Part shown: piece after piece, positions 1,357-55,588 of the stretch
Numbering within the stretch: the stretch's first letter is position 1
Layout of the letters: each line of letters begins with the position of its first letter
Assembly: GCA_017883205.1 (NCBI GenBank)
Contig: JADGNZ010000022.1
Location: forward strand, 1 to 64,000
Length of the DNA: 64,000 nt
Source: Thermoanaerobaculia bacterium
Lineage (GTDB): Bacteria; Acidobacteriota; Thermoanaerobaculia; Gp7-AA8
Reading direction: 5' to 3'
The notes under the pieces: generated by a model
Databases searched by the model: none
What the model saw: only the letters and a program-made list of their open reading frames with translations
What the model was told of the DNA's origin: nothing
Position numbers and translations under genes: made by a program

Positions 1357-1440
1357 GGAAGCTCTCCTTTTCCCGGCGAAGTTTACGACGCGGGAGGGTG
1401 ATCGGATTGGAAACCTGGCGCGGGTTCCTTACACTCTTCT

Positions 1441-1822
1441 CGACGTGGTCATTTTCGATGTCAACGTCGTCATTTTGGATGAGAAATCGGCATCCTGGAT
1501 GTCATCGATGACATTTTCTAAGCAAAATTTGCATCCCGGATGACATCGATGACATATTTTTAGTCATCGATGTCATCTCTTAAGCAAAATTTGCATCCTA
1601 GAAGTCATCGACGACATTTTTTGACCAAAATCCGCATCCTGGAAGTCATCGATGACATTTCTTAAGCGAAATCGCCATCCCTGGAAGGCATCGATGACAT
1701 TCTTTAGGCGAAATCGCGAATCGCGGATGTGGATATCGTTGTTTTTTATTTGAAATCGGCATCCTGGATGCCGACATCGTCATTCCTTGATGGTTCGATG
1801 TCGACATCATCGATCTTCGTTC
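1441..1822. repeat. Dyad array A: about 41-bp degenerate tandem repeat
   Basis: The gene-free stretch 1357-2002 holds about eight degenerate copies of a 41-bp unit. The best copies contain the perfect 16-bp palindrome ATGTCATCGATGACAT, then GCAAAATTTGC, then CATCCTGGAT running into the next copy. In the clearest copy (from 1501) the centres of the first two dyads are 20.5 bp apart, and half of 41 is again 20.5, so dyads recur every two helical turns. Copies near 1500, 1600, 1643 and 1686 are most alike; the outer ones are decayed. The weak open frame on the minus strand here reads repeat units and is not taken as a gene. Confidence 0.85.
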
Positions 1823-2002
1823 GAATTTGGTGGAGTCGGCGCGCCAGGTGGTTCCCTTCGCTCGTGACTGTTGGCGCGATGCCGTAGATCGAGCTTTCGG
1901 CGATACACCGCTTTCAACCCGTGCTGAAGCGAGTGTTAAACACACCTCCGACGGTTCAGAACACACCAGTTCGGGAAGAAATCGTCGAGCCGCCCGACGT
2001 TT

Positions 2003-2988: not shown

Positions 2989-3255
2989 CTACGTTCGCGT
3001 CACCGGTGCCTGATTGCCAAGTTTGTCGCTTGGCGGAACCGGCGACGCAGGCTTCTGTGTAACGTTCGGCCCCTCAGCGCCTTTACTCGGCTCGGGTGCA
3101 GCGCCCGGCATGCCATGCGCCGCGGGTGTTTGCGCCGAGGAGTTTGCAGGATGCATCATCGCCGGGGGCGCATTCTGGTAATCGCGTGGCACCTTCTCAC
3201 CACGGCAAGCGCCGAGAAGCAGAAACGCGGTTGCAGCGGCAATCATGGTTCGCAT
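2989..3255 (-). CDS. Small secreted lipoprotein
   Basis: Starting from ATG at 3255 the protein is 88 residues long. It begins with a short lipoprotein signal (MRTMIAAATAFLLLGAC), whose LLGAC lipobox places the lipidated cysteine at residue 17. The mature part is proline- and alanine-rich and of low complexity (SKGAEGPNVTQKPASPVPP), typical of an envelope tether with no fold. A longer in-frame start at 3288 would spoil the signal, so the internal ATG is preferred. The gene is divergent from the TPR gene at 3297 with only 41 bp between starts, so the two share a promoter region. The function is unknown. Confidence 0.7.
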   Translation of the reverse strand: MRTMIAAATAFLLLGACRGEKVPRDYQNAPPAMMHPANSSAQTPAAHGMPGAAPEPSKGAEGPNVTQKPASPVPPSDKLGNQAPVTRT

Positions 3256-3296
3256 GCAGAAATACGGTTCAAGTGATGTGCCATACAATTCTGGTT

Positions 3297-4148
3297 ATGC
3301 GAAAAATACTGATCGTCGCCATCGCAACTATCGGATTCACGCTTCCTTCGTTCGCGCAGGTGAGCGAAGGCGATCAGCATTGGAACGCGCGGGCCGAAGG
3401 CCATCAGGGCGGCCGGGCCAAAGCGGGACAAGTCGATGCCGCGATCGCTGCGTACCGCAAAGCAGTTGCTCAGGAGCCGAACAACCTCGAGGCGCGCGGG
3501 AAGCTGCTGCGGGCGGTGCGATTCAAAGGCGCGTATGTCGCATCGACCAACGATGAGAAGAAGGCGATCTACGCGATCGCGAAGAACGATGGTGATGCGG
3601 CGATGGCCGTGGTCAACCGGCAGCTCGCCGCGAAAGGCGTGAAGGCAGACGCCCCGGAAAAGAACGTTGCCGATGCCGCGCGCGCCATCTCCGGAGCGGC
3701 CGATGTCTTTCTCTGGGATTCCGTCAACTGGGGCGAGTGGGCTCTCGCCTACGGCAAAATGGCTGCGGTGCGCCAGGGAGCCGCAGACCGCATCCGCCGC
3801 GAGGCGACGATCGCCATGTTGATCGATCCGAAACTCGACGGCGGCGGACCGCAACGCGTTCTCGGCCGGCTGCACGATCAGACGCCGCGCGTGCCGTTCC
3901 TCACCGGCTGGGCCTCGAGCAAAGAGGCCGTTCGTTTCCTGAGGGAGTCGAACAAGATCGATCCCACGAACAAGATCACGCGCGTCTTTCTGGCGGATGC
4001 GCTGGTGTCGGACGACAGCAAGAATGCCCCCGAAGCGATTCGGATTCTGCGCGAGGTGATCAACTCTCCGAACGATCCGAATTTCGAGGTCGAGAACGTG
4101 CAGGCGCAGGAGGACGCGAAGGCGTTGCTGCGAGAGTGGGGAGCGTAG
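3297..4148 (+). CDS. Secreted TPR-containing protein
   Basis: The preferred ATG at 3297 gives 283 residues and a clean signal peptide, MRKILIVAIATIGFTLPSFA, likely cut before Q. The longer in-frame extension has no signal and low-quality sequence. The mature part has TPR-like helices near the N-terminus (VDAAIAAYRKAVAQEPNNLEAR) and again near the C-terminus (EAIRILREVINSPNDPNFE). It is probably periplasmic. A TACAAT box ends only seven bases before the ATG and no Shine-Dalgarno is present, so the message may be leaderless. No enzyme motif is seen. Confidence 0.75.
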   Translation: MRKILIVAIATIGFTLPSFAQVSEGDQHWNARAEGHQGGRAKAGQVDAAIAAYRKAVAQEPNNLEARGKLLRAVRFKGAYVASTNDEKKAIYAIAKNDGDAAMAVVNRQLAAKGVKADAPEKNVADAARAISGAADVFLWDSVNWGEWALAYGKMAAVRQGAADRIRREATIAMLIDPKLDGGGPQRVLGRLHDQTPRVPFLTGWASSKEAVRFLRESNKIDPTNKITRVFLADALVSDDSKNAPEAIRILREVINSPNDPNFEVENVQAQEDAKALLREWGA

Positions 4149-4170
4149 TTATCACGCGAAGACGCGAAGA

Positions 4171-7100
4171 CTACCGCGCGACCGCGGGCATGAACTGTGA
4201 GTCGCCGTTGGGATCGACGACGCTGGCGTAGGCGACGCAGGTGCCGGCGACCAGGGAAATGTGCAGGGCGTTGGTCTCGTCGAGCGTGACGCCGAGCGTC
4301 TTCTCGATTTCGGGGATCGTTCGCAACTCGTCTTCGTTGAGAGCTTCTTCGAAGGTCCGGCCGATCTTCTGGCCGGTTCGCGTGCGGACAGTGATGCGGA
4401 AGATCGCCGGGACTTTCCCGATGTTGACGATGCCGATGTTGACGCGGCGATCGGTGCCGCTGGGAATGCCGACGAGGGTGAGATCCTGGTTCTCGCTCCC
4501 CGCGCTGGCGGAGTCGCGCATCGACAGCGGCGCGCTGACCGAGCCACGGGCGTTGTGCGCAGCGTCGTAGGTCTTGATCCGCGCGACCGGTTGATGCTGC
4601 CCTCGGTATTCGATCCACAGCACGCCGCTCCCTTCGGGTGCCCCAAAGAGCGACCGCACGACGTCCTCCCATCGCAGGCTTTGTCCGCCGAGGATCGTGA
4701 CGTTCCGGTCGATGCGTGATTCTCCGGCAACGTAGCGCAGCTCCAGCGGCATCCGCTCCTTGAACGGATTGTGCAGCGTCAGATCGCTTCGCCAGTACGA
4801 CGCGTTCGCCCCTGGCAGACTGCCGACGGACGGGAAAACCACGCGCGACCGATCGCCGATCGCGCCAAGCTCCGCGACCGTCGGAATGCGGATGCGCGCC
4901 AGATACGCCGCAAGATTCAGCCGCGCCGCCTCCGGTCGGCGCCGCCAGATCTCGACGCCTCGGGTTGTCCGCGCAAACGTGTAATGGTCGTCGATGTAGG
5001 CGGCCACCGCCTGCGCCCGAATCGAGTTGTCGATGCCGTCGAAGACATCGAACTCCTGCGGTGAGTGCCTGATGACCAGCGGAGGCCTTGCCCGCTCCAG
5101 CGCGAGGATCGTCTCGGCTTGGTACGCGGGTGGGGAGAGGATCGGCACCTGGTAGAAGCGCGTCGGGTTCGGGCGGTCGCAAAAGAAATAAAGGGCCGGC
5201 TGATTGGAGAAGTCGAACATCGGCTGGCCGGGCTTGCTGAGCGCATCGACGGCCGATTTGACCGCTTCGACGCGATTGCGGATCTCTTCTGCCGCCGGAT
5301 CGATCCAACCGATACGGCTCACGCGCCCGAGGTAGTGGGTGGTGTCATCGAGCCGCATGTTGATGATGTCGGGCACCCAGAGAATGACGGCGAGAACCGG
5401 CAGCATCATCGCCGCGGCCAACACGACGAACGCTTTCGTGGCCTGCTCATGCGTGCGCCAGATGCCCGCTACGGCGCGGCCGAACAGCACGAGCAGGATG
5501 AGGATCATCGGTCCGATCAGGAACGCCGAAAAGTACTGGTGCTGAAAATCGGCGCGGCCCAGCGCGCTGCGTTGCGTCAGGATCGCGAAGGCCGCGAGCA
5601 CCGCCAGCCCGAGATCGAGGTCAGCGTCGAATTCATAGGTGCGGCGGGTGATCCTGCGCTGCACCAGCACGACCAGCGCGAGGCCGATCACGAGCGGATT
5701 CAGGATGAAACGGAAGTGATCGCTGAGGACGAAGTCGGACAGGGAGTGGAGGTTGAGGTTGCTGCGGAAGGTCGTCGTCAGATCGGGGAACGGTAACGAC
5801 CAGACGGCGTCGATGATGCGGGGAATGGCGAAGAACGACGTCGCCACAAACGCTCCGAACGCCCCGCGCATGCTGAGGTAGACGACGAAGGGCGCGGCGC
5901 CGAGGGCGATTCCGGCGACAAAGCTCGCCAGCAGTGCCCAACTGCGCTGCGCAGCATTGCGGACCAGAGACGCAGCCAGGATCGCCAGGACGCCGCCGCC
6001 CACGGTGTAGAGACCGATATCGAGGCTGTAAAAAAGGGTGATCGCTGCCGCAACTCCACTCGCAAGCGCGAGCCATCGCGCATTGCGCCGCATCGCGCCG
6101 ATGAGCAGGGCGATGGCGACGATCTCGAACAAGGCGCGCTCGTTGTCGACTGTGGTTACGGCGCCGAGGAGAATCGACAGCATCGCCAGCGGAATGGAGT
6201 CGAAGATCACCATGCCGAGGTACCAGAGCATCGCCACGGCCACCGAGCCGAGGATGACCGGGCGGAGGAGAACGATGTTGATGTTCCGCCCGAAGAGCTC
6301 CATGAGCCACGTGTCCAGCAGGCCGTCTTCGAGCAGACCGTGGAGCGCGAATACATCGCGAAACGGCACTTTGCCGCGAAGCAGATCCGACGCCGGGCCG
6401 AGCGTTTCGCCGCGATGGAAGAGATCGATCCACTGCGTCAGCGAGGCCGTCGACGCGTAGCTGAGACAGAAGAGAAGCGAGGGGAGGATGGCGAAGGCGA
6501 CGAGGTTGCGAACGCTGCGCGAATCGATCGGCTCGCGACGGCTAAGCATCAGCGGAAGCGCCAGAAGGATCATCGCCATCGCCAACGAGATCGCAACACT
6601 GCCCTGGACAAACAAAAGCGCGAGCGGTGGAAGGATGACCATCGGCAGCGCGGCGATTCCAATCCGCTGCAGTGCTTCCTCCGTGGTGAGGTCGGAGGCG
6701 AACGCGGCGACGCGGGCAATCAACAGAAACGCCAGCCAGAAAAGGGCGATGAAGAAGGCGATGAACGCGATCTCGAGAAACAGCGTGGGAATGTGCGCGA
6801 TCCGTTTCCCGACGGCGATGTATCGAAAGAGGATCCACGACAGCGCCTCGACGACGATGAGCGCGTGATGCGGCGCCATCGCGCGTACGAAGAGCTTGCG
6901 AATCCAGAGTGTCCGCTGCCACGTGATGACCGCTCGGGGCAAGAGCTGCGAAAACGCCAGCGGGATGAGAATCGGCCAGGCCGGCTTGAACGTGGTGAGG
7001 TAGAGAAACGGGGCGAGAAAAAAAGGCGCAACGAACAGCGCGGAGACGAGATTGCGAACGCTCTCGCCGCTGACCGTGGCGCGCAGCCTCAGGTTCTCAC

Positions 7101-19040: not shown

Positions 19041-19565
19041 ATGAGTGACAGCGCACGCATCCTCGACGCCATCCGCCGCCTCGTGCGGCACCTTCGTCTG
19101 GCCGATCGCGCGGCGCAGAGCGAGTTGGGAATCTCGGGCGCGCAGCTCTTCGTGCTCGCCGAACTGGGGAAAACGCCCGCGCTCTCGCTGAACGAAGTTG
19201 CCGCGTTGACCCGCACCGATCAGAGCTCCGTGTCGGTCGTCGTCAGTCGCCTCGTGGAGGCAGGACTGATCACGCGCGCGCGCGATACGCGCGACGCGCG
19301 GCGCCTCGTGCTCGATCTCACTCCGAGCGGACGCGCGGTCCTGGATCGGGCGCCGGCGGTGCCGCAGGAACAGATGCTGCTCGCGATGGATCGTCTTCCC
19401 TCCGCGGAGCGCAAGCATTTTGCTGACTTGCTCACCGCGCTGGTCGAGGAGCTTGGTGTCGATCCCGGGCCGGCGCCGATGCTCTTTGAAGATGACCGAA
19501 AGAACAGGAAGCGCAGCGAGCGTGCCGGAAGAACCGCGAAAGGTGAGGATGAAGCGGCGAAGTGA
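19041..19565 (+). CDS. MarR-family transcription regulator
   Basis: The 174-residue winged-helix regulator shows the MarR DNA-binding core: LSLNEVAALTRTDQSSVSVVVSRLVEAGLITRARDTRDARRLVLDLTPSGRAVL. It usually binds as a dimer and releases DNA on binding a ligand. The C-terminal ~25 residues are basic (RKNRKRSERAGRTAKGEDEAAK) and overlap the start of the CLC gene by 17 bases, so the two are translationally linked. The likely target is its own operon including the CLC gene. Confidence 0.85.
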   Translation: MSDSARILDAIRRLVRHLRLADRAAQSELGISGAQLFVLAELGKTPALSLNEVAALTRTDQSSVSVVVSRLVEAGLITRARDTRDARRLVLDLTPSGRAVLDRAPAVPQEQMLLAMDRLPSAERKHFADLLTALVEELGVDPGPAPMLFEDDRKNRKRSERAGRTAKGEDEAAK

Positions 19566-21327
19566 CCTGAATATCGAAGTGGCCGCGACGCAAACAGATA
19601 TGAAGAAGACCTCGAGGGGCGACTTTTCGGCCGATCAGCGATTGCTTCAGCTCTCCGCGATTTCCATCGCCATCGGTGCCGTCGGTGCGGTCGTGGCCGT
19701 ATTACTCCTGAAGCTCATCGCCTGGTTCACGAATCTCTTCTTCTATCTACAGTTCTCGCTGACGCCCCGAACCCCTGCAGGAAGCCCCCTCGGACTTTGG
19801 ATGATCGTCGTCCCGGTGATTGGCGGTCTGATCATCGGTTTGATGGCCCGTTATGGCTCCGAGAAGATTCGCGGCCATGGCATTCCGGAAGCTCTCGAGG
19901 CCATTCTCTTCGGGAAGAGTCTCATGTCGCTGAAGGTAGCGATACTCAAACCTCTGTCATCTGCGATCTCGATCGGATCGGGGGGACCCTTCGGCGCTGA
20001 AGGCCCCATCATCATGACCGGTGGCGCAATCGGATCCCTCGTCGCGCAGAGGTTTCATCTGTCGTCCGCTGAACGAAAGACCTTGCTTGTGGCGGGAGCG
20101 GCGGCTGGAATGTCCGCGACGTTTGCCGCGCCAATTGCGGCTGTATTACTTGCCGTGGAGCTCCTGCTCTTCGAGTGGAAACCCCGGAGCCTGATTCCGG
20201 TGGCACTGGCCAGCGCAGTGGCCGCGGCGATGCGTGTGCATCTCCTCGGAGCGGGCCCTCTCTTCCCCGTGGCGGCTCATGGCATCGTCGAGTGGCCTGG
20301 ATTGCTCGCGGCCGTTGTGGTCGGCCTGGTCGCTGGCGCGTTTTCCTCGGGACTCAGCACCCTGCTCTACGCGCTCGAAGATGCGTTCGAACATTTGCCG
20401 CTGCACTGGATGTGGCGTCCGGCAGTAGGCGGATTGGTCGTTGGAATCGGAGGTTACTTCCAGCCAAGGACCCTGGGAGTGGGCTACGACCTTATTGGCG
20501 ATCTGCTTCTGGGGCACTTAGCCGTTTCGATCGTTCTGGCGCTACTCCTCGTGAAGTGCGGGATCTGGCTCGTCTCTCTAGCTTCCGGGACCTCGGGCGG
20601 AGTCCTTGCTCCACTCTTGATCATGGGATGCGGACTGGGGGCAGTCGAGGCGATCCTGCTGCCTTCCTCCGGGAGCGCCTCACTCTGGCCGTTGGTCAGT
20701 ATGGCCGCGGTCCTGGGAGGAATGATGCGCGCCCCATTTACCGCTGTGATTTTTGCGCTCGAGCTGACGCATGACGTGGACTCGTTGCCTCCTCTGCTCA
20801 TCGCAGCGGTGGTCGCGTACGGATTCACCGTACTCGTGATGAAGCGCTCCATTCTCACCGAGAAGGTCGCTCGCAGGGGTTACGACATCTTCCGGGAGTA
20901 CACGGTCGATCCGCTGGAAACGTACAGGGTTTCGGAAGCGATGACGGAATCGGTCCTGACGATTCCGGGATCATTTCCAGCGAGCCAGATTTACGAGCGG
21001 TACTTTTCATCGAGCCAGAAGCACCGTGGATTTCCGGTGGTGGACGCGAATGAGAAGCTTCTCGGGATCTTGACGATCTCCGATGTCATGGAGATGTCAA
21101 TCTCAGCGCCCGACGCCGCCCTGACTGCCCGCGACCTGATTCGACTCGATCCGATCGTCGCCCACCCTGAAGAGACATGTCGGGAGGCGGCCGAGCGCAT
21201 GGCGGAATCAGGGATCGGACGGCTGCCGGTTCTGTCGGGTGGGAAACTCATCGGCATCATCACGCGCAGCGATTTGCTAAAGCCTCGGCTTCTTCGCTTC
21301 GAAGAGGAGCGCAGGACCCCTCGTTAG
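19549..21327 (+). CDS. CLC-family chloride channel/transporter with CBS pair
   Basis: ATG 19549 (ribosome site AAAGGTGAGG) gives 592 residues. The membrane core has the CLC anion-site motifs GSGGP (143-147), GAEGP with gating glutamate E151, and SGGVLAPLL. The C-terminal ~150 residues form two CBS domains (SEAMTESVLTIPG and ARDLIRLDPIVAHPEE). Aligned with E. coli ClC, E202 is kept but the internal proton glutamate E203 is leucine (L205 here). That fits a channel or an altered exchanger rather than a standard 2Cl-/H+ antiporter. ATG 19600 is an alternative start. Confidence 0.88.
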   Translation: MKRRSDLNIEVAATQTDMKKTSRGDFSADQRLLQLSAISIAIGAVGAVVAVLLLKLIAWFTNLFFYLQFSLTPRTPAGSPLGLWMIVVPVIGGLIIGLMARYGSEKIRGHGIPEALEAILFGKSLMSLKVAILKPLSSAISIGSGGPFGAEGPIIMTGGAIGSLVAQRFHLSSAERKTLLVAGAAAGMSATFAAPIAAVLLAVELLLFEWKPRSLIPVALASAVAAAMRVHLLGAGPLFPVAAHGIVEWPGLLAAVVVGLVAGAFSSGLSTLLYALEDAFEHLPLHWMWRPAVGGLVVGIGGYFQPRTLGVGYDLIGDLLLGHLAVSIVLALLLVKCGIWLVSLASGTSGGVLAPLLIMGCGLGAVEAILLPSSGSASLWPLVSMAAVLGGMMRAPFTAVIFALELTHDVDSLPPLLIAAVVAYGFTVLVMKRSILTEKVARRGYDIFREYTVDPLETYRVSEAMTESVLTIPGSFPASQIYERYFSSSQKHRGFPVVDANEKLLGILTISDVMEMSISAPDAALTARDLIRLDPIVAHPEETCREAAERMAESGIGRLPVLSGGKLIGIITRSDLLKPRLLRFEEERRTPR

Positions 21328-21419: not shown

Positions 21420-21547
21420 GCATTTCTCACACACTTGGTTCAGCTCCTTGCTACAGCTCCTTGCTACACCTCCTTGCTACACCTCTTCCTTTTTCTTCGC
21501 AGTGCTTTCCGATCGAAAGAGTTTGGATAAAAGTGTGAGAAAGCGGG
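21420..21547. repeat. Flank of array B: inverted CGCATTTCTCACAC element and 15-bp repeats
   Basis: GCATTTCTCACACACTTGG (21420-21438) faces its near-complement AAGTGTGAGAAAGCGGG (21531-21547). Between them are three 15-bp tandem copies built on CTCCTTGCTACA (about 21441-21486). The same 19-base flank, 17 of 19 identical, recurs beside array C at 42661. The stretch lies in the gene-free interval 21328-22208. Confidence 0.75.
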
Positions 21548-21667
21548 CTAATGACTCACCGGCGAGCCGGGAAGCGGCAAACGGACGTCACGAAGCGATC
21601 ACGCACCTTCGAGAACGGCAGCTTGACGTCACGGCAACCGGGCAACCGCGTCGCCATCCTCGTCCCG

Positions 21668-22024
21668 CGAGTGCGGAGTCAGACTCTTCGAGTCCGGACT
21701 TAGAACCGATGAGTCGGTACTCACACTTATTGAGTCGGTACCCACATCGTCTGAGTCCTTACTCACGTCCGATGAGTCGGTACTCACATCTCGTGAGTCG
21801 GTACTCAAGTGACGTGAGTACGGACTCACAACGTTTGAGTCGGTACTCACATTTTGTGAGTCCGCACTCATATTCTTTGAGTCGCGACTCACATTCTTTG
21901 AGTCCGTACTCAAGTTCTTTGAGCCCGTACTCAAGTTCGGTGAGTCCGTACTCAAATTCGGTGAGTCCGTACTCAAGTTCGGTGAGTCGGTACTCATATT
22001 TTTTGAGTCGGTACTCAAATTTAA
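21668..22024. repeat. Dyad array B: 17 units of exactly 21 bp
   Basis: Fifteen canonical units start at 21710 and repeat every 21 bp without a single indel to 22024; two decayed units precede them. Each unit is TGAGT-4 bases-ACTCA plus a 7-base linker, most often TGAGTCGGTACTCA. The 5-base arms are nearly invariant, while the central four bases (CGGT, CCTT, ACGG, CCGC, CGCG, CCGT) and the linkers vary. Because 21 is divisible by three, both strands are open and appear to encode heptapeptide repeats; I regard these frames as artefacts. The array lies between two convergent genes. The remainder up to 22208 has no recognisable feature. Confidence 0.95.
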
Positions 22025-22208
22025 AATCGACCGAGGGGCCGTCGGAGGGTCAGAATCATCTGATTTTGGCAGAAAACGGGCCGAAATCGATGGAGTGGTG
22101 CCGTAACTAAACTCAGTTATTCCAGCGAGCGCTATTTTATCGCCCATCGATGGGTAGCAGCTAGCGGATTCGAGGTCAGTGGATTCAGAGACTCGTGGAT
22201 TGAATCCA

Positions 22209-23525
22209 CTACACGCCCACCTGCCGTTGCCACTCCTCCGTCCCGCCTTGCACGTTGCGCACGTTGGTGAAGCCGGCGCGGGCGAGGAGGCTGCTGGCGA
22301 TCGACGAGCGGTAGCCTCCGGCGCAGATCACGGCCAGGGGATGCTCGCGGTCGATCTCGCTGAAGCGTTCGGGAAGCTCGTCGAGAGGGATGTTCTTCGC
22401 GCCGGGGATGTGACACTCCGCAAACTCGCCGCGGCGGCGAACGTCGAGGATGGCGGGCGACTGGTCGCGCAGCTCTTGCACCGTGAGTTGCGCGAGTGGC
22501 GTGGTTGGGTAATCGTCCATCGCGGCGATGTATCCGGCCACACGCTCGATGCCGACGCGCGCCAGGCGGATCACCGCTTGTGCGGCGGAGTTCGCATCGT
22601 CCGCGACGATGACGATCGGCGCGTCGAATGGCAGCAACGCACCACACCACGTCGCGAAACTTCCATCGAGCCCGATGTTGACCGCGCCATCGATGTGCCG
22701 CGCACCGAAAGCGCCGGCATCACGCACGTCGAGGATCAGCGCGCCGGAAGGCAGCGTATCGGCGGTGAGCAGCGCTGGTCCTTCGTCGCTCAACGAAGAT
22801 GGTCCGACGCGATTCAGTTCGGCGTCGTGAGGAAAATAGCGCGGAGGTGCAGCCAGGCCTGAGGTCAGCTCCTGAATGAGCTCCTCGCGTGGCATCGGCC
22901 GCAGCGCCCAATTCAGCTTCCGCTGCATGCCGATCGTCGATGTCAGCTCCTTCGACATGTTCCGGCCGCATGCTGATCCGGCTCCGTGCGCGGGCCAGAC
23001 TTCGACATCATCGGGCAGCGTCAGGATCTTCGTGTGGAGCGAGTCGTAGAGCATCGAGGCCATCTCTTCGGACGTATGCCCGCGTGCGCCGGCGAGATCG
23101 GGCCACCCGACGTCGCCGATGAAAAGCGTGTCGCCTGTGAGCAGTTTCGATGGATGCCCCTCCTCGGATACCAGCCACGAAATTGATTCCGGCGTGTGGC
23201 CGGGCGTCTCGATCGCGCGCAGTTCGACGTGGCCGATGCGAAGCACGTCGCCGTCGCGCACGGCGCGGTGCGGGAACGCAGCGTTCGCCCGTGCGCCGAA
23301 CACGATCTCCGCGCCGCTGCGCTCAGCCAGCTCCCTGTGTCCGCTGACAAAGTCGGCGTGAAGGTGCGTCTCGAGGACGTGGCGAATGACCACGCCGAGT
23401 GTCTTCGCGGCGTCGAGATACTGATCGACATCGCGCTGCGGATCGACGACGACAGCCTCACCGCCATCCGCGATCAGGTACGACGCGTGCGCCAGGCATC
23501 CGAGGTAGAACTGGTGAAAGTGCAT
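22209..23525 (-). CDS. Metallo-beta-lactamase fold protein with two rhodanese domains
   Basis: The N-terminal domain (about residues 1-225) is an ETHE1-like metallo-beta-lactamase fold with THLHADFVSGH, GHTPES and GDTLFIGDVG, probably a persulfide dioxygenase or related sulfur hydrolase. Two rhodanese modules follow (about 255-345 and 350-438). The second has the catalytic cysteine in AVICAGGYRS. The first has IVIVADDAN at that place and lacks it, so it is probably structural. ATG 23525 (MHFHQFYLGCLAH) matches the family start. A role in sulfide or glutathione-persulfide detoxification is inferred. Confidence 0.88.
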   Translation of the reverse strand: MHFHQFYLGCLAHASYLIADGGEAVVVDPQRDVDQYLDAAKTLGVVIRHVLETHLHADFVSGHRELAERSGAEIVFGARANAAFPHRAVRDGDVLRIGHVELRAIETPGHTPESISWLVSEEGHPSKLLTGDTLFIGDVGWPDLAGARGHTSEEMASMLYDSLHTKILTLPDDVEVWPAHGAGSACGRNMSKELTSTIGMQRKLNWALRPMPREELIQELTSGLAAPPRYFPHDAELNRVGPSSLSDEGPALLTADTLPSGALILDVRDAGAFGARHIDGAVNIGLDGSFATWCGALLPFDAPIVIVADDANSAAQAVIRLARVGIERVAGYIAAMDDYPTTPLAQLTVQELRDQSPAILDVRRRGEFAECHIPGAKNIPLDELPERFSEIDREHPLAVICAGGYRSSIASSLLARAGFTNVRNVQGGTEEWQRQVGV

Positions 23526-23570
23526 GTTGTGGTCGCGGGCTTTCGGGATGGTCGCGCGCAACCGCGATCA

Positions 23571-42543: not shown

Positions 42544-42648
42544 CCGTCATCGGAGCCGTAGCTTCCGACATCGGTCCGATCTAGACCGGCATCGGTCCGA
42601 TTTGGACCGGCATCGGGACCGCTGATTCCGACTTATTACCGCCCTTCG
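42544..42648. repeat. Dyad array C: five 21-bp units
   Basis: Units start at 42544, 42565, 42586, 42607 and 42628, each beginning CCG, in strict 21-bp register; a possible sixth starts at 42649. The best dyads are CGGTCCGATTTGGACCG and GGTCCGATCTAGACC. The array begins 12 bp after the FecR gene stop. Directly after it, GCATTTCTCGCACGCTTGG (42661-42679) matches 17 of 19 bases of the flank of array B. The rest of the gap 42533-42879 holds no other visible feature apart from the ribosome site AAAGGAG before 42880. Confidence 0.82.
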
Positions 42649-42879
42649 CCGTCTTTTGACGCATTTCTCGCACGCTTGGTGCGCTCGATTGGAAAGCGCG
42701 CAATCTTGTGAGTGGCTAGCTTCGCTACCAGAAGCCAACTGATGACCGCGTCCTTCCGCCCCCATCCCGCGTCATCCCACCGAAATCCTGGGTCATTCTG
42801 ACCCTCCAAATGCCCCTTCCACTCTGCGCGGACGTGGCATTTCGCTTGGACTTGTCTCCCGCCCAAAGGAGACGTACCC

Positions 42880-43516: not shown

Positions 43517-43768
43517 ATGCCCCGACCACCTTCGTATCCACTTCCGCTCGTCGCCGGATCGAAGCGTCCTTCCCGTTTGCGCTGCGAGCTCTGTTTTCAT
43601 ATCGGTGCCGCCGTTCGTGTCGGCGCCAGACTTCTCTGCGGCGCCTGCTTCCACGATGTCGCGCTGAGCGAAGAAGCGGCGAGAAGCGAGCGAGGTGCCG
43701 TCGCGGCTTCGATGCGGTCGACGGACCCCTTTCAAGCGGTTGCGGACGGCTTCGATGCGGTCGATTGA
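43517..43768 (+). CDS. Small zinc-ribbon protein with array-encoded C-terminus
   Basis: A good AAAGGAG site precedes the ATG. The 83-residue protein has one treble-clef or ribbon pair, CELCFHIG ... LLCGACFHDV, spaced like structural zinc sites. Residues ~66-83 (MRSTDPFQAVADGFDAVD) are encoded by the first copies of dyad array D, so the original C-terminus was probably shorter and has been replaced or extended by repeat DNA. The function is unknown. Confidence 0.6.
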   Translation: MPRPPSYPLPLVAGSKRPSRLRCELCFHIGAAVRVGARLLCGACFHDVALSEEAARSERGAVAASMRSTDPFQAVADGFDAVD

Positions 43769-44014
43769 CCCTTTTCGTAAGGTTGCGGACCGTTTTAAAG
43801 AGGTCGACTGACCCCTTTCATGCGGTTGCAGACCACTTTAAAGAGGTCGATTGACCCCTTTCACGAGGTTGCGGACCGCTTTATAGAGGTTGCACGACCC
43901 CTTTCATGAGGTTGCGGACCACTTTAAAGCGGTTGACTGACCCCTTGAAAGAGGTTGCGGACCGCTTTGAAGACGTTGATTGACCTCTTTCACGAGGTTG
44001 CGGACCACGACGTT
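43714..44014. repeat. Dyad array D: seven 43-bp units, each a 22+21 bp pair
   Basis: Seven 43-bp units follow each other without indels. Each is an A half of 22 bp (GNGGTCGATTGACCCCTTTC type) and a B half of 21 bp (GAGGTTGCGGACCACTTTAAA type, longer than needed here). The A dyad is GGTC-4-GACC and the B dyad GGT-5-ACC. The distance between successive dyad centres is 21.5 bp throughout. The array starts inside the zinc-ribbon gene and runs to just before the YfhO-like gene. It covers most of 43769-44123. Confidence 0.93.
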
Positions 44015-44123: not shown

Positions 44124-46346
44124 GTGATCGTACTTTTGCTCCTGGGCATCGTCCTCCCGGCTGTCCTCCTCGTCGCCAGCGTGCGGCGATGGATCGCGCC
44201 GGTGCCGTGGACGATCGCGCTGCTGTTGCTGGCGCTGACGCTCGTGTTTCTGCAGGGCGCCGTGTTCAGCAGCAGGCTGCCGGTGCCTGTCGATGAGGTC
44301 GCGCGCGGCTATCCGTGGCGCGGTCTGTTCGGCGACGTCGTTGCTGCCAATCCGCTGACCAACGATACGGTGAAGTTGTTCCTGCCCTGGATGCAGGTCG
44401 CGCGCGAAGAGCTCGCGCACGGGCGTGCGCCGCTCTGGAACCGTTACTCGTTCGCCGGCTATCCGCTCCTGGCAAACGGGGAGTCTGCGCCCTTCTCGCC
44501 GCTTTTTCTGGCGACGCTGATCGTGCCGTTGCCGAAGCAGATCGTGGCCATGGCGGCGCTGAAGATCTTCGCCGCGCTCCTTTTCACGTACCTGTTTCTC
44601 AAACGAGAAAAGGTAAGCGATGCCGCGGCGGTGTTTGGCGCCATCGTCTTCGGCTTCTCGACCGTAATCACCGTCTTCCTCTACTACTCGACCGCCTCGG
44701 TCGTCGCCTTTCTGCCCGCCACAGCCTTCGCGCTGCTGCACGCGCTCGACCGGCAGACGAAGGCGAGCATCGTCTTCGTCGCGCTCGTCATCGCCACGCT
44801 GTTGGCGAATGGCCATCCCGAAAGCGTGCTGCATATCGCCGTCGGTTGCGGCGGAATCCTCGCCATCGAATTGTTGCGGTGGCGGGGTCCCGCGGGTCTT
44901 CCGGCGGAGCGGCGTCGCGACATGCTCCGCCGCTTCGTTGCTCCCATTCTCGGCGTTGCCGCCGGCCTCGCCCTCGGCGCTCCGGCATGGGTTCCCGTGC
45001 TCGAACAGGTGCGTATCAGCGAGCGCTTCGCAACGCTTCGCAAGGTGCCTCCCGTACCGATGCAACCGTTCACCGCGGCGTGGGCCATCATCAGCCCGAA
45101 CGGATTTGGCAATCCGGTGCGGCACAACTGGTCGTGGATGCAGCACTACGCCGGCGTTGCCATCTCGTACGCGGGCCTTCTTCCGCTGGCGCTCGCGCTT
45201 GCGGCCCTGATCGCCCGGCGGACGGAGGCGCGGGAGCGCTGGCGCATCGTGCTCGCGGTCATCCTTTTTTTCGTGGCGATGGACTGGACGATCGCCGGGC
45301 ACGCGCTGAATGCGATTCCGCCGTTCAACATCGCCGCAAATGACAAGCTGCGATTCGTCTGCATTTTTCTGATCGCGATCGTGGCGGCGAAGGCGCTGGA
45401 TGTGTCGAAGACCGCGATGGCGATCGCGTCGGCGCCGATCGTGTTGCTGGCGATCTACGTCTACGCCAAACGCTCCGACCTGATGCGTCCGGTCGACCTC
45501 ATCGGAGTCGCTGCCATTCTCATCTTCCTCTTCCTGCCGCCACGGTTCCGCTCATGGGCGGCCGTAGCCCTTGTCTTCACGGAGCTTTGCGCGTTCAACA
45601 GCGGCTTCAACGCGCTGGTCGACGCGAAGTACTTCCGGCCGCCGCTGCCGATCGTCGATGCCTTTCGCGCGCACGCGCCGCGCGAGCCGTTCCGCGTGGC
45701 CGGTCTGGCCTGGGTTCTCCTGCCGGATTCCTCTGCGCAGTACGGTCTCGAGGATGTTCGCGGCAGCGATCCGATGGCCTTCGCGTCGTACGACAGCTAC
45801 CTGCGCCGCTTCACCGCGCCGGACCTTGGCTGGCTTCCGCTGATCAAAGACGCAAACCGGCCCGAGCTCAACTTCCTGAATGTTCGTTTCCTGCTCGGTG
45901 AGCCCGATTCATCGCCGGGAGGAATGTGGCGGCGGCTCTATCGCGGCGCTGACGGGACGCTCTGGGAGAACCCTGCCGTGCTTCCGCGTTTCTTCGCGCC
46001 TGGCGCCGAGGTGCGCGATCTGCGCAGCGGCGCACCGGCCGAGTTTGCGATGACGGTCGTTGCGCCGTCGCCAACGCTCGTCGAGTCGAGCGAAGTGCTT
46101 GCGCCGGGACGGCGGGTGTATGTCGGAGGACGTCGAGTGCCGCTGCGGCATATCGAAGGCACGTTCATCGGATTTGAAGTGCCAGCCGGGACCTCGGACG
46201 TTCGCGTGGTTTATCGACCGATGAGTTTTTATGGTTCGTGCGCGGTGGCGCTGCTGACTGTATTGACGCTTTGGTTTTGGCCTGTGCGTAAGGTCGCCGC
46301 CGAGCCGGCGGCGGACCAGCCGTCGAGCCGACGGCGCTACGCCTAA
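44124..46346 (+). CDS. YfhO/GT-C-like polytopic membrane protein
   Basis: With GTG 44124 the protein is 740 residues long and starts in the first membrane helix (VIVLLLLGIVLPAVLLVAS). The open frame extends upstream to a TTG at 43980, but that part is array D and hairpin DNA, so the true start is uncertain. About twelve membrane segments cover residues 1-480. A soluble C-terminal part of ~250 residues follows (FRVAGLAWVLLPDSSAQYGLEDVRGSDP). The motif WNRYSFAGYPLLANGE resembles YfhO-family proteins that act in glycosyl transfer to teichoic acids or lipids. The last ~20 residues are encoded by GC hairpin repeats. Confidence 0.75.
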   Translation: MIVLLLLGIVLPAVLLVASVRRWIAPVPWTIALLLLALTLVFLQGAVFSSRLPVPVDEVARGYPWRGLFGDVVAANPLTNDTVKLFLPWMQVAREELAHGRAPLWNRYSFAGYPLLANGESAPFSPLFLATLIVPLPKQIVAMAALKIFAALLFTYLFLKREKVSDAAAVFGAIVFGFSTVITVFLYYSTASVVAFLPATAFALLHALDRQTKASIVFVALVIATLLANGHPESVLHIAVGCGGILAIELLRWRGPAGLPAERRRDMLRRFVAPILGVAAGLALGAPAWVPVLEQVRISERFATLRKVPPVPMQPFTAAWAIISPNGFGNPVRHNWSWMQHYAGVAISYAGLLPLALALAALIARRTEARERWRIVLAVILFFVAMDWTIAGHALNAIPPFNIAANDKLRFVCIFLIAIVAAKALDVSKTAMAIASAPIVLLAIYVYAKRSDLMRPVDLIGVAAILIFLFLPPRFRSWAAVALVFTELCAFNSGFNALVDAKYFRPPLPIVDAFRAHAPREPFRVAGLAWVLLPDSSAQYGLEDVRGSDPMAFASYDSYLRRFTAPDLGWLPLIKDANRPELNFLNVRFLLGEPDSSPGGMWRRLYRGADGTLWENPAVLPRFFAPGAEVRDLRSGAPAEFAMTVVAPSPTLVESSEVLAPGRRVYVGGRRVPLRHIEGTFIGFEVPAGTSDVRVVYRPMSFYGSCAVALLTVLTLWFWPVRKVAAEPAADQPSSRRRYA

Positions 46347-53134: not shown

Positions 53135-53610
53135 GAAGGAAAATTCCTCCTGAGAAAGGATTTCTCCTCCCGCAGAGGAAAATATCCTCCCGCAGAGGAA
53201 AATATCCTCTTGCGGAGGAAAATATCCTCCTCCAGAACACTTTAGTGTTCTTCAAGAGGATTTCATGACTCCTGCAGAGGACATCGCGCCTCCCTCGGAA
53301 GCAGAGAATGTTCCGAAAGAACCGAAATTTGCCTCCCGCGGAGCGTCCTTGCGCTGACGCGAAAGGAAAAAACGCTCCGCAGGAAGCATTTTCTCCTCTG
53401 CTGTTGCCAAAATTGCTGTATGCGCAAGGATTTTCCCTCTGCTGTTGCCAAAATTGATTTATCGACAAGCGATCGGTGGTCAAAGAGTTACCAAAATTGG
53501 TCCTAACGCAGCAGAAGACGCTGCAAGCAAGGGGATCGCCGCATGCTTGCACCCCGCAGCGCCACCTGTATAAGTGCGGGATGCCACCTAAGTGGTGCCG
53601 AAAGGGCCAT
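53135..53610. repeat. Dyad array E: about 20 units of 19-23 bp with changing arms
   Basis: Gene-free stretch 53026-53610. Three near-identical units GAGGAAAATATCCTC start at 53175, 53195 and 53215. They are followed by GAACACTTTAGTGTTC (53235), GAGG-8-CCTC (53277), AGCG-6-CGCT (about 53342), CCAAAATTGG-like units (53404, 53445, 53488), GCAGC-7-GCTGC (about 53510) and CCACCTAAGTGG (53584). Unit starts stay 19-23 bp apart. The arms change sequence but remain complementary, so pairing symmetry rather than primary sequence is conserved. The array lies between convergent genes. Confidence 0.85.
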
Positions 53611-54945
53611 CTATGCGGCACCGGCACTTCTCTCTGTGCCAAACAAGGACCGGCGCCTGACAAACCAAATCACCGCCACCACGATCGGCCAGGCAACATA
53701 GAAGACCATCTCCGCTCCGCTCGCCCTTTTCGCCAACGGATAGCCCGGATACGACGACGTCTCGCGCGCCGGCGCACGGACACCCGCGAGACCGTAAATC
53801 GTATCGAGCACGATCTCCTCAGTCGTCGATCGGCTCATCGCGCTCTTCGATCCAAGCTGATAGACGACCTCGCCGTAGCGCGCGTCGTTCTCGAACAGAC
53901 CTGAACGTCCCGCCAGCGGATAGATGACTCGTACATCTCGCTTCGCCCGCCGCAATTTCAGCAGGACGTTGTTCTCGAAGTCGGTCATGCGCGGATCTTC
54001 GGAGGATAGAAACACCGTGATCGTCAGTGGGTCGCTGATGCCGGCAAGTGCTCGCTCGTCCGAGGGAGAAAACGAATTGCGCCGGTTCTTGGAGAGATCG
54101 AAGCTCGCGCGAACCTGCATCGCGCAGATAGTCGCAATCGCCGCGACCGTCACTGCGATTGCCGAATGCGCGAGCCGCGTTCGAATGCTTCGCCCGAGGC
54201 GAAGCCAGATCGCGGCGATGGCGAATCCGAGCAGCGAAATGATCAGCATCACCAGCACGACATCGACACGTAGCAATCCCCGCTCGAAACCGCGCGACGT
54301 CGCGGTCGGCGTGAACGACGCAAGCGTCTGCACGATCCCGCCCCGGCCTGCGGCGATGAAGTCGAGCGCCCACGTTCCGATCGTGAAGGCCAGCACGATG
54401 ATGGCCGCGTTTGCAGCGCCCGACATCAGCGCCGCTGCGGCCATGGCAATCGACGCGATGAGCAGAAAGCGAAGCGTGTAGCCAGCGAGGAGGTTGAGCA
54501 CTTCCGCGGCGTGCAGATGCCCGCCGTAACCACGCCAGAGTGCCAAAGCAATGAAGAACGGGACGAGCGAGACGATCCAGGAGCCGATGAGCGCGATCAC
54601 TTTCGTAGCGATCTGCGAGCCGATCGAGGACGGCCATTGCAGCATCAGCTTCAGCGCGTCGGACGACTTCTCTGACGCTACGAGCCGGATGGCCACGAAC
54701 GGAAAAAGGAGCGTGATGGCGAGATCGTAGGCACCAAGGGTTGGCGTCAGTATGCCGTCGAGCGGCGACAGCCCCTGCGCCAGCGCCGCTGCCCCTCCTC
54801 CGATCCCGCTCGCCTCGGCGTACGCATTCACGGCAGTGATGAAGCCTTGTCCCGTGAGCAGCCCCACGATCACCAGCAACAGCCAGAACGCGCGGCTGGC
54901 CGCCAACTCCGCGATCTCCTTCCGCACCAGATCACGTGAGCGCAA
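53611..54945 (-). CDS. ABC-2-type permease fused to a GldG-like domain
   Basis: The N-terminal half (about residues 15-265) is an ABC-2 permease with six membrane segments (LLLVIVGLLTGQGF, TLLFPFVAIRLVASEKSSDALKLML). After a helix at ~265-285, the C-terminal part (about 295-420) resembles the extracytoplasmic domain of GldG/ABC-type uncharacterised transporters (NSFSPSDERALAGISDPLTITVFLSSEDPRMTDFENNVLLKL), closed by a final membrane helix (about 415-432). It overlaps the ATPase gene by 14 bases. Probably exports or handles an envelope component. Gliding function is not implied. Confidence 0.82.
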   Translation of the reverse strand: MRSRDLVRKEIAELAASRAFWLLLVIVGLLTGQGFITAVNAYAEASGIGGGAAALAQGLSPLDGILTPTLGAYDLAITLLFPFVAIRLVASEKSSDALKLMLQWPSSIGSQIATKVIALIGSWIVSLVPFFIALALWRGYGGHLHAAEVLNLLAGYTLRFLLIASIAMAAAALMSGAANAAIIVLAFTIGTWALDFIAAGRGGIVQTLASFTPTATSRGFERGLLRVDVVLVMLIISLLGFAIAAIWLRLGRSIRTRLAHSAIAVTVAAIATICAMQVRASFDLSKNRRNSFSPSDERALAGISDPLTITVFLSSEDPRMTDFENNVLLKLRRAKRDVRVIYPLAGRSGLFENDARYGEVVYQLGSKSAMSRSTTEEIVLDTIYGLAGVRAPARETSSYPGYPLAKRASGAEMVFYVAWPIVVAVIWFVRRRSLFGTERSAGAA

Positions 54946-55588
54946 GGAAGACCTCCTCGAGCCCGCTCACTCCCGCCCGCGATGTCAGCTCGCTAATCGT
55001 TCCCTCCGCGACCGACCGTCCGTTGTCGAGTAGAAGAAATCGATCGCAGGCGCGCTCGGCGTCGCGGAGTTGGTGAATGGAGAGCACGAGCGTGCGGCCC
55101 TTCGCTGCATCCCGGCGCAGGATGCTCATAACCTGGCGGGTCTGGCGCAGATCGAGTCCGTCGAACGGCTCATCGAGCAGCAGCACCGGCCGCGGCACGG
55201 AGAGTCCCATGGCGATATCGAGCCGCTTCGCCTCGCCTTTCGACAGCGAACCGACCGTGGCGTGTTGCAGCGCCACGAGATCGAGATCGGCGAACAGTGT
55301 CTCGTCGAGCCGCGAGTCGAACATGCGCGCGGTCAGTTCCAGCGTCCAACGGACTGTCTGGTCGGGCCACGGTCGGATCGCGTCAGGAACGTAAAACAGC
55401 GGCTCGCCGTGAACCGTGCCGCCGTGAAAGGGAAGCACGGCGGCGACGCACTCGAAAAGCGTTGTCTTCCCTGCTCCGTTGGGACCGATGACGCCGAGGA
55501 TCTCGGAGGGATGGGCCGTGAAAGAGACGTCGGTCAGCACCGCGCGCGATCCGCGTCGCGCGCAAAGTCCTGCAACTGCGAGACTCAT
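54932..55588 (-). CDS. ABC transporter ATP-binding protein
   Basis: The 218-residue ATPase has Walker A GPNGAGKTT, a signature with one change (SLSKGEAKRLDIAM), Walker B PVLLLDEPFDGLD and the H-loop in VLSIHQLRD. It is linked by overlaps to both neighbours: ATGA with the upstream lipoprotein gene and 14 bases with the permease gene. The three thus form one operon, with this protein as the motor of the ABC-2/GldG-like permease. Confidence 0.92.
   Translation of the reverse strand: MSLAVAGLCARRGSRAVLTDVSFTAHPSEILGVIGPNGAGKTTLFECVAAVLPFHGGTVHGEPLFYVPDAIRPWPDQTVRWTLELTARMFDSRLDETLFADLDLVALQHATVGSLSKGEAKRLDIAMGLSVPRPVLLLDEPFDGLDLRQTRQVMSILRRDAAKGRTLVLSIHQLRDAERACDRFLLLDNGRSVAEGTISELTSRAGVSGLEEVFLALT

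Follow-up and report, generated by a model that had tools for sequence, protein, structure and literature searches.

Within the window, the 64,000-nucleotide stretch of Thermoanaerobaculia DNA analysed here, two convergent genes enclose a tandem array that we refer to as array B. The gene on the left encodes a ClC chloride channel with CBS domains (19420..21327, plus strand; Pfam PF00654 and PF00571) and the gene on the right a metallo-beta-lactamase/rhodanese protein (22209..23561, minus strand; Pfam PF00581 and PF00753). The array itself (21710..22024, assigned to neither strand) is composed of 15 units of the form TGAGT-NNNN-ACTCA, each followed by a 7-bp linker, which places the dyads 21 bp apart. 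An earlier note on this DNA had described 15 consecutive indel-free 21-bp units whose outer five bases are almost fixed on both sides, and both descriptions hold: the first unit starts at 21710 and the last at 22004, all steps between them being of 21 bp and free of indels, both arms are perfect in 13 of the 15 units and 148 of the 150 arm letters are fixed, the exceptions being ACCCA in the unit at 21731 and TGAGC in the unit at 21920. Two degenerate 21-bp units in the same phase, likewise without a strand, lie to the left (21668..21709, starting at 21668 and 21689), and counted with them the in-phase array comprises 17 units. A conserved module borders the array on either side, the two flanking genes lying outside the element thus formed. 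The left module (21551..21667) is homologous in copies C1, C92 and C42, the right module (22018..22131) is 95% to 84% identical to that of the other five copies of the element and recurs in genome G001 at 77% identity, and neither is assigned to a strand. No Rfam family and no tRNA was detected in the window. A REP-like repeat, CACACACTTGG...AAGTGTGAGAAAG, of which the genome holds many partial copies, abuts the element at window positions 21420-21517, and the same junction between this repeat and the element is present in copy C1.

The array is the central part of an element of ~580 bp, element B, in whose copies the array is flanked by two conserved stretches of ~115 bp. Six copies, of which the window array is one, are dispersed at unrelated loci of the 6.4-Mb Acidobacteriota genome; the sister species, a Thermoanaerobaculia MAG (isolate Chersky.31_28), has two further copies, and the third species of the genus has none. 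Each copy carries 15-18 dyad-symmetric 21-bp units, and the copies differ in unit number mainly by whole 21-bp units. The exceptions are one 20-bp unit in the sister species and one 22-bp unit in copy C100, so that the absence of indels is true of the window copy but not of all its homologues. The left module is cut short in copies C100 and C82, both of which begin inside it at GACGTCA. The earlier note had also taken centre and linkers to vary freely. However, over 130 full-length units from eight copies the centre reads C(C/G)G(T/G), with ~0.9-1.5 bits per position, and while the linkers are indeed variable inside the array, they are largely conserved at the matching array position between copies, an identical linker recurring at equal position in different copies. 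Linkers that recur position by position indicate that the diversity within the array predates its copying, and that its linkers were inherited and are not random.

Equal variation in the arms, centre and linkers of homologous arrays is what, according to the earlier note, would have spoken against its reading, and in the six copies the variation is not equal. Aligned unit by unit, the copies show a pairwise divergence of 4.4% in the arms, 15.9% in the centres, 22.7% in the linkers and 13% in the 3' module. Wrongly aligned units might have raised the figures for linkers and centres, but they would not account for the lower divergence of the arms relative to the flank. Since the arms diverge by 4.4% and the 3' flank by 13%, the arms have been under constraint since the copies separated. 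Arms are also better conserved than linkers in 22 of 28 gene-linked arrays of other sequence (p 0.004).

Two relatives of element B are full-length modules in which a gene follows the array on the B minus strand, namely G000:C42 (~53271-55053) and G001:C107 (JADGNY010000163.1, ~3100-4539). The gene encodes a member of an uncharacterised family of ~180-250 aa that we name here AAP, for array-associated protein. In the full-length copies the minus strand of the array is co-directional with the AAP gene, the left module marks the array-gene side, or leader start, and the right module marks the end far from the gene; the unit DNA belonging to the AAPs of G000:C42 and G001:C107 is TGAGTNNNNACTCA. 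Because these full-length relatives carry an AAP gene while the window copy is gene-less, the window array is a solo copy. It is from the dispersal of its copies that we infer that element B is mobile. No target-site duplication was found and no clean empty site was recovered in G001 or G002: at the C35 locus the element is absent from both, yet the neighbouring genes differ too, which leaves the junction undefined. Inspection of the ends of the B copies revealed no terminal inverted repeat, and the 5' ends differ between copies. When 85k species genomes were searched for the exact TGAGT-pair pattern, arrays with many matches appeared in the sister species only and single pairs elsewhere, two of which, in a Bacteroidetes MAG and a viral contig, fall in 21-bp arrays without a detectable AAP. 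The MAG (locus L059; CAIMUP010000101.1) has 21-bp arrays at 5701-5855 and 1821-2034, one dyad being nearly that of array B (TTTGAGTAATCACTCAAA), and no AAP was detected in it by profile; the viral contig (L060:2118-2182; IMG/VR 3300036823_000120) has three 21-bp units, TGTGAGTTGAAACTCACGGGT.

Of the 36 tandem arrays detected in a 464-kb sample of this genome, 30 have a period of ~21 bp (or 2x21), among them many of unrelated sequence, and 29 of these 30 are intergenic as judged against gene calls from a simple codon model (coding fraction 0.7-0.8). Extrapolation to the whole genome gives about 400 arrays, which would make up close to 2% of it, although all such counts depend on the MAG assemblies, on our home-made gene calls, on the TRF thresholds and on the partial sampling of contigs. 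Array density is similar in the sister species, and practically no such arrays occur in the stretches sampled from the third species and from AAP-less genera. Most units of the class are palindromic: arms of at least 6 bp are present in 19 of 48 units, versus 2.3% expected from shuffled units (p 4.5e-19), with 17 of the 48 unit consensuses having arms below 5 and no good palindrome, and periods of 20, 22, 41 and 43 bp also occur. The window holds two further arrays of this class, neither assigned to a strand. Array A (1410..1850) is a solo array in which GTCATCGATGAC and GCAAAATTTGC palindromes alternate with a 41-bp period, and it has six further near-full copies as well as fragments in the genome. 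Array C (43716..44006) has a 43-bp period, its palindromes being ~21.5 bp apart. Another small array family is represented by a short CCGGCATCGGTCCGATCTAGA array with a 33-bp right flank (window 42565-42684); array and flank recur beside longer 21-bp arrays at G000:C1:184293-184637 and G000:C35:78777-79204. At locus L075 (G000:C1:43814-47153) arrays of two different palindromes, TCCTCAACGTTGAGGA and ATGTCATCGATGACAT, are adjacent at 45120-45593, and arrays may thus nest or insert beside one another.

The AAP gene is greatly expanded in this genome, with 66 copies. Sister species have 55 and 9, another genus of the family has 31 and 2, and the remaining 13 genomes of the family have none. No AAP was found in phages, plasmids or viral contigs. 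Searches of Pfam, NCBIfam, PHROG, PADLOC and the PDB returned no significant relative, the weak and mutually inconsistent PADLOC and PHROG matches being treated as chance, and by profile no DNA-binding domain is recognisable. Only P69, L157 and P170 are invariant in the alignment, which contains no conserved H, Y or acidic catalytic residue, and many AAPs have basic Lys/Ala/Pro-rich tails. A single-sequence AlphaFold model was unusable (pLDDT 41).

Most AAP genes have an array as their neighbour. An array of at least 100 bp lies within 1.3 kb upstream of the AAP gene at 30 of 42 loci, as against a downstream repeat at 1 of 41 (p 1e-11). At some 12 of the 42 loci no array was detected; four to six of these have a contig end upstream and the others, including both G017 loci, are truly without one. 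As a test of prediction, 20 fresh AAP loci were inspected, 16 of which had enough upstream sequence, and 12-13 of the 16 had an array versus ~1.4 expected, the lower figure applying if the weak match at L207, which is probably coding, is dropped. The sequence of the array follows that of the protein: the array sequence is common to 7 of 8 pairs of AAPs with at least 80% identity, to 6 of 22 pairs with 60-69% and to 4 of 921 pairs below 50%. The dyad core GTCA...TTGAC is common to L185, L188 and L190 despite a failed BLAST test, their linkers being different, and a AGATCGCGATCT array family and the 238-aa gene that follows it have been duplicated together. The association also extends to solo arrays, as 18 of the 30 sampled arrays (3 of the 18 themselves AAP-linked) matched an AAP-linked array in a comparison drawing on only 45 linked arrays, and shuffled sequences gave 0 matches. 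Many of the estimated several hundred, mostly intergenic arrays are thus solo copies of arrays that elsewhere accompany an AAP gene.

A profile built from the shorter AAPs identified a Bacteroidota homologue (E 3e-8). In keeping with the occurrence of such proteins of ~160-180 aa in Bacteroidota, relatives of this homologue are present in 27 of the 341 genomes of its class, the assignment of this set to Bacteroidota resting on locus L059. We know of no functional account of such proteins. Arrays of the 21-bp type lie beside the Bacteroidota homologues as well, downstream at 15 of 30 loci and upstream at 0 of 30. That the pairing is kept across two phyla while the side of the array changes argues for a physical partnership and not for a promoter or leader. 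Judged from sequence comparison, the pairing of AAP and array is specific by descent and old.

Given this pairing, it is appealing to propose that array B is a gene-less representative of a module in which array and protein are paired, and that it presents helically phased dyad DNA sites that would be bound by the cognate AAP, a reading to which we assign a probability of roughly 60%. AAP, probably as a dimer, would bind each dyad sequence-specifically as double-stranded DNA, and the two-turn spacing would align all the bound dimers along a single side of the helix, giving rise to a cooperative AAP nucleoprotein block in which the Lys/Ala/Pro-rich tails may help to hold the DNA. Solo arrays would be non-autonomous copies, open to AAP encoded elsewhere in the genome. 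The module as a whole would persist through copying to further genomic sites in a selfish, REP-like manner, with chromosome organisation as a possible side role; such selfish spread is favoured over autoregulation or chromosome organisation as the reason for its maintenance because solo copies far outnumber genes and because array families turn over quickly. The earlier note had offered two readings, phased binding sites or a row of stem-loops, and it is the first of these that fits: 21.0 bp corresponds to two helical turns, palindromes are strongly enriched among arrays that have this period but unrelated sequences, and the arrays are tightly linked to a protein family.

It is conceivable, albeit unlikely, that the arrays are simply selfish satellites, which recombination and slippage spread and maintain, and that AAP is a passenger or a transposition helper that does not bind the units. 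The hundreds of solo arrays, the change of unit number by whole 21 bp and the location of solo copies where the 3' ends of genes converge and an insertion does no harm would all be in keeping with this. However, constraint falls on the arms and not on the linkers, dyad symmetry is enriched in unrelated arrays, and the association of arrays with AAP spans phyla, whichever side of the gene the array is on.

We consider it unlikely that the partnership is with RNA, i.e. that AAP binds short hairpins formed by a transcript of the array, made together with the AAP gene or antisense to it, in parallel to repeat-RNA/protein pairs such as type III toxin-antitoxin systems. In Acidobacteriota the array is upstream of, co-oriented with and beside the gene of a small basic protein, and in family B the arm changes favour those that preserve G.U pairing on the minus (gene-sense) strand by 24:3, or by 10:2 when only singletons are counted, the number of independent events being smaller than 24:3 suggests. 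Attractive as this is for family B, it fails across the 29 gene-linked arrays read in gene-sense orientation, where sense-strand mismatches comprise 109 G.U and 103 A.C (13 versus 11 arrays, p 0.73). Moreover, the Bacteroidota arrays are found on the opposite side of the gene, hairpins with stems of 4-6 bp are weak, and an RNA would not explain the exact two-turn spacing. Since G.U equals A.C and the step is exactly two turns, the simplest reading is one of dyad sites along one face of double-stranded DNA, and the stem-loop half of the earlier proposal is unsupported.

A separate host DNA-binding protein could use the phased dyads for regulation or nucleoid structure, with AAP as a regulated target gene. 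Two-turn-spaced dyads upstream of genes, and hundreds of sites, might be expected of such an arrangement. Yet the array sequence differs among AAP paralogues and tracks the AAP sequence, so that one host protein could not read them all, and the Bacteroidota arrays are downstream of the gene; we therefore hold this to be improbable. Finally, that the period reflects a coding heptapeptide repeat, as 21 bp being seven codons and the open frames crossing array B on both strands might suggest, can be rejected as extremely improbable, since 29 of 30 arrays are intergenic, several lack an open frame, periods of 20, 22, 41 and 43 bp exist, changes between copies have no codon periodicity and one homologous array contains an internal 1-bp shift.

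In plasmid Rep-iteron systems and at sopC of the F plasmid, with its 43-bp repeats and SopB, tandem repeats of about two turns with inverted repeats lie beside the gene of the binder. The arrays described here resemble such iteron and centromere arrays in their two-turn (or double) spacing and linked protein gene, AAP being the presumed binder. However, they are chromosomal, tens of paralogous pairs exist alongside hundreds of solo arrays, AAP has no profile match to Rep, ParB or RHH proteins, and no ParA-like neighbour was noted beside it (partition arrays are discussed in PMC6238139). REP/BIME sequences with their RAYTs (REPINs) are extragenic palindromes that number from tens to hundreds, frequently form clusters and have a linked single-gene partner family as well as many gene-less copies (Di Nocera et al., 2013, PMC3733652; PMC8049555). 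Many-copy extragenic palindromes (29 of 30 arrays intergenic, palindromes enriched), a linked gene family and solo copies are features in common. Nevertheless, RAYTs are Y1 (HUH) transposases, whereas no transposase model matches AAP, in which visual inspection also revealed no HUH signature, and the strict 21-bp tandem steps and a different palindrome for nearly every AAP clade set the present arrays apart. By this comparison the system has the geometry of an iteron or centromere array and the genome ecology of REP/RAYT, but AAP does not match the partner protein that defines either of them.

Type III toxin-antitoxin (ToxIN-like) loci likewise have tandem repeats directly upstream of a small-protein gene, but their RNA antitoxin consists of a few units of ~35 nt, whereas the present arrays have no RNA-strand signature, lie on either side of the gene and are mostly solo, and ten AAPs had no ToxN/AbiQ-type match in Pfam or PADLOC. 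Phased operator arrays of homodimeric regulators share the palindromic sites, the helical-turn spacing and the location upstream of the regulator's own gene; the present arrays differ from them in having 10-20 sites, a partner with no recognised HTH or RHH domain and, in Bacteroidota, a downstream position. Unlike CRISPR, with repeats of 24-48 bp and unique spacers of similar size, the 21-bp units are contiguous and their 7-bp linkers recur between copies.

Our search, limited mainly to the open literature, found no paper that describes palindromic arrays of 21-bp units together with a gene family linked to them, and it is this, together with the lack of a protein match, that makes the system appear new, although an earlier description under another name is possible. 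Whether we are dealing with an undescribed two-part system of at least two phyla is, in our estimation, an even bet: fast-diversifying small proteins, each with its own 21-bp-phased palindrome array, would be present as tens of pairs plus hundreds of solo arrays per genome, either spreading themselves or organising the chromosome, with many specificities in one cell. If AAP binds its linked array, a single cell would harbour tens of orthogonal protein-DNA recognition pairs with 10-20 phased sites per array, a ready set for studies of specificity co-evolution and a possible source of DNA-labelling tools. Several hundred intergenic arrays would then have a single cause and a profile-less protein family a function. 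The pairing predicts which AAP binds which array and can be tested in vitro.

Many AAP genes are located at contig ends, the break being just upstream of or inside the gene (G000 C9, C100, C22, C30, C72, C27, C82, C54, C81, C11 and C29), probably because assembly fails at arrays or at near-identical recent copies. Some AAP genes have directly 3' of them another member of the AAP family, which is short and acidic-looking, for example, at L149:2067-2444 (G002:C61), with similar genes at G001:C132:6576-6758, G016:C21:647779-647946 and G000:C81:49961-50143; its product is possibly a partner or an antagonist of AAP.
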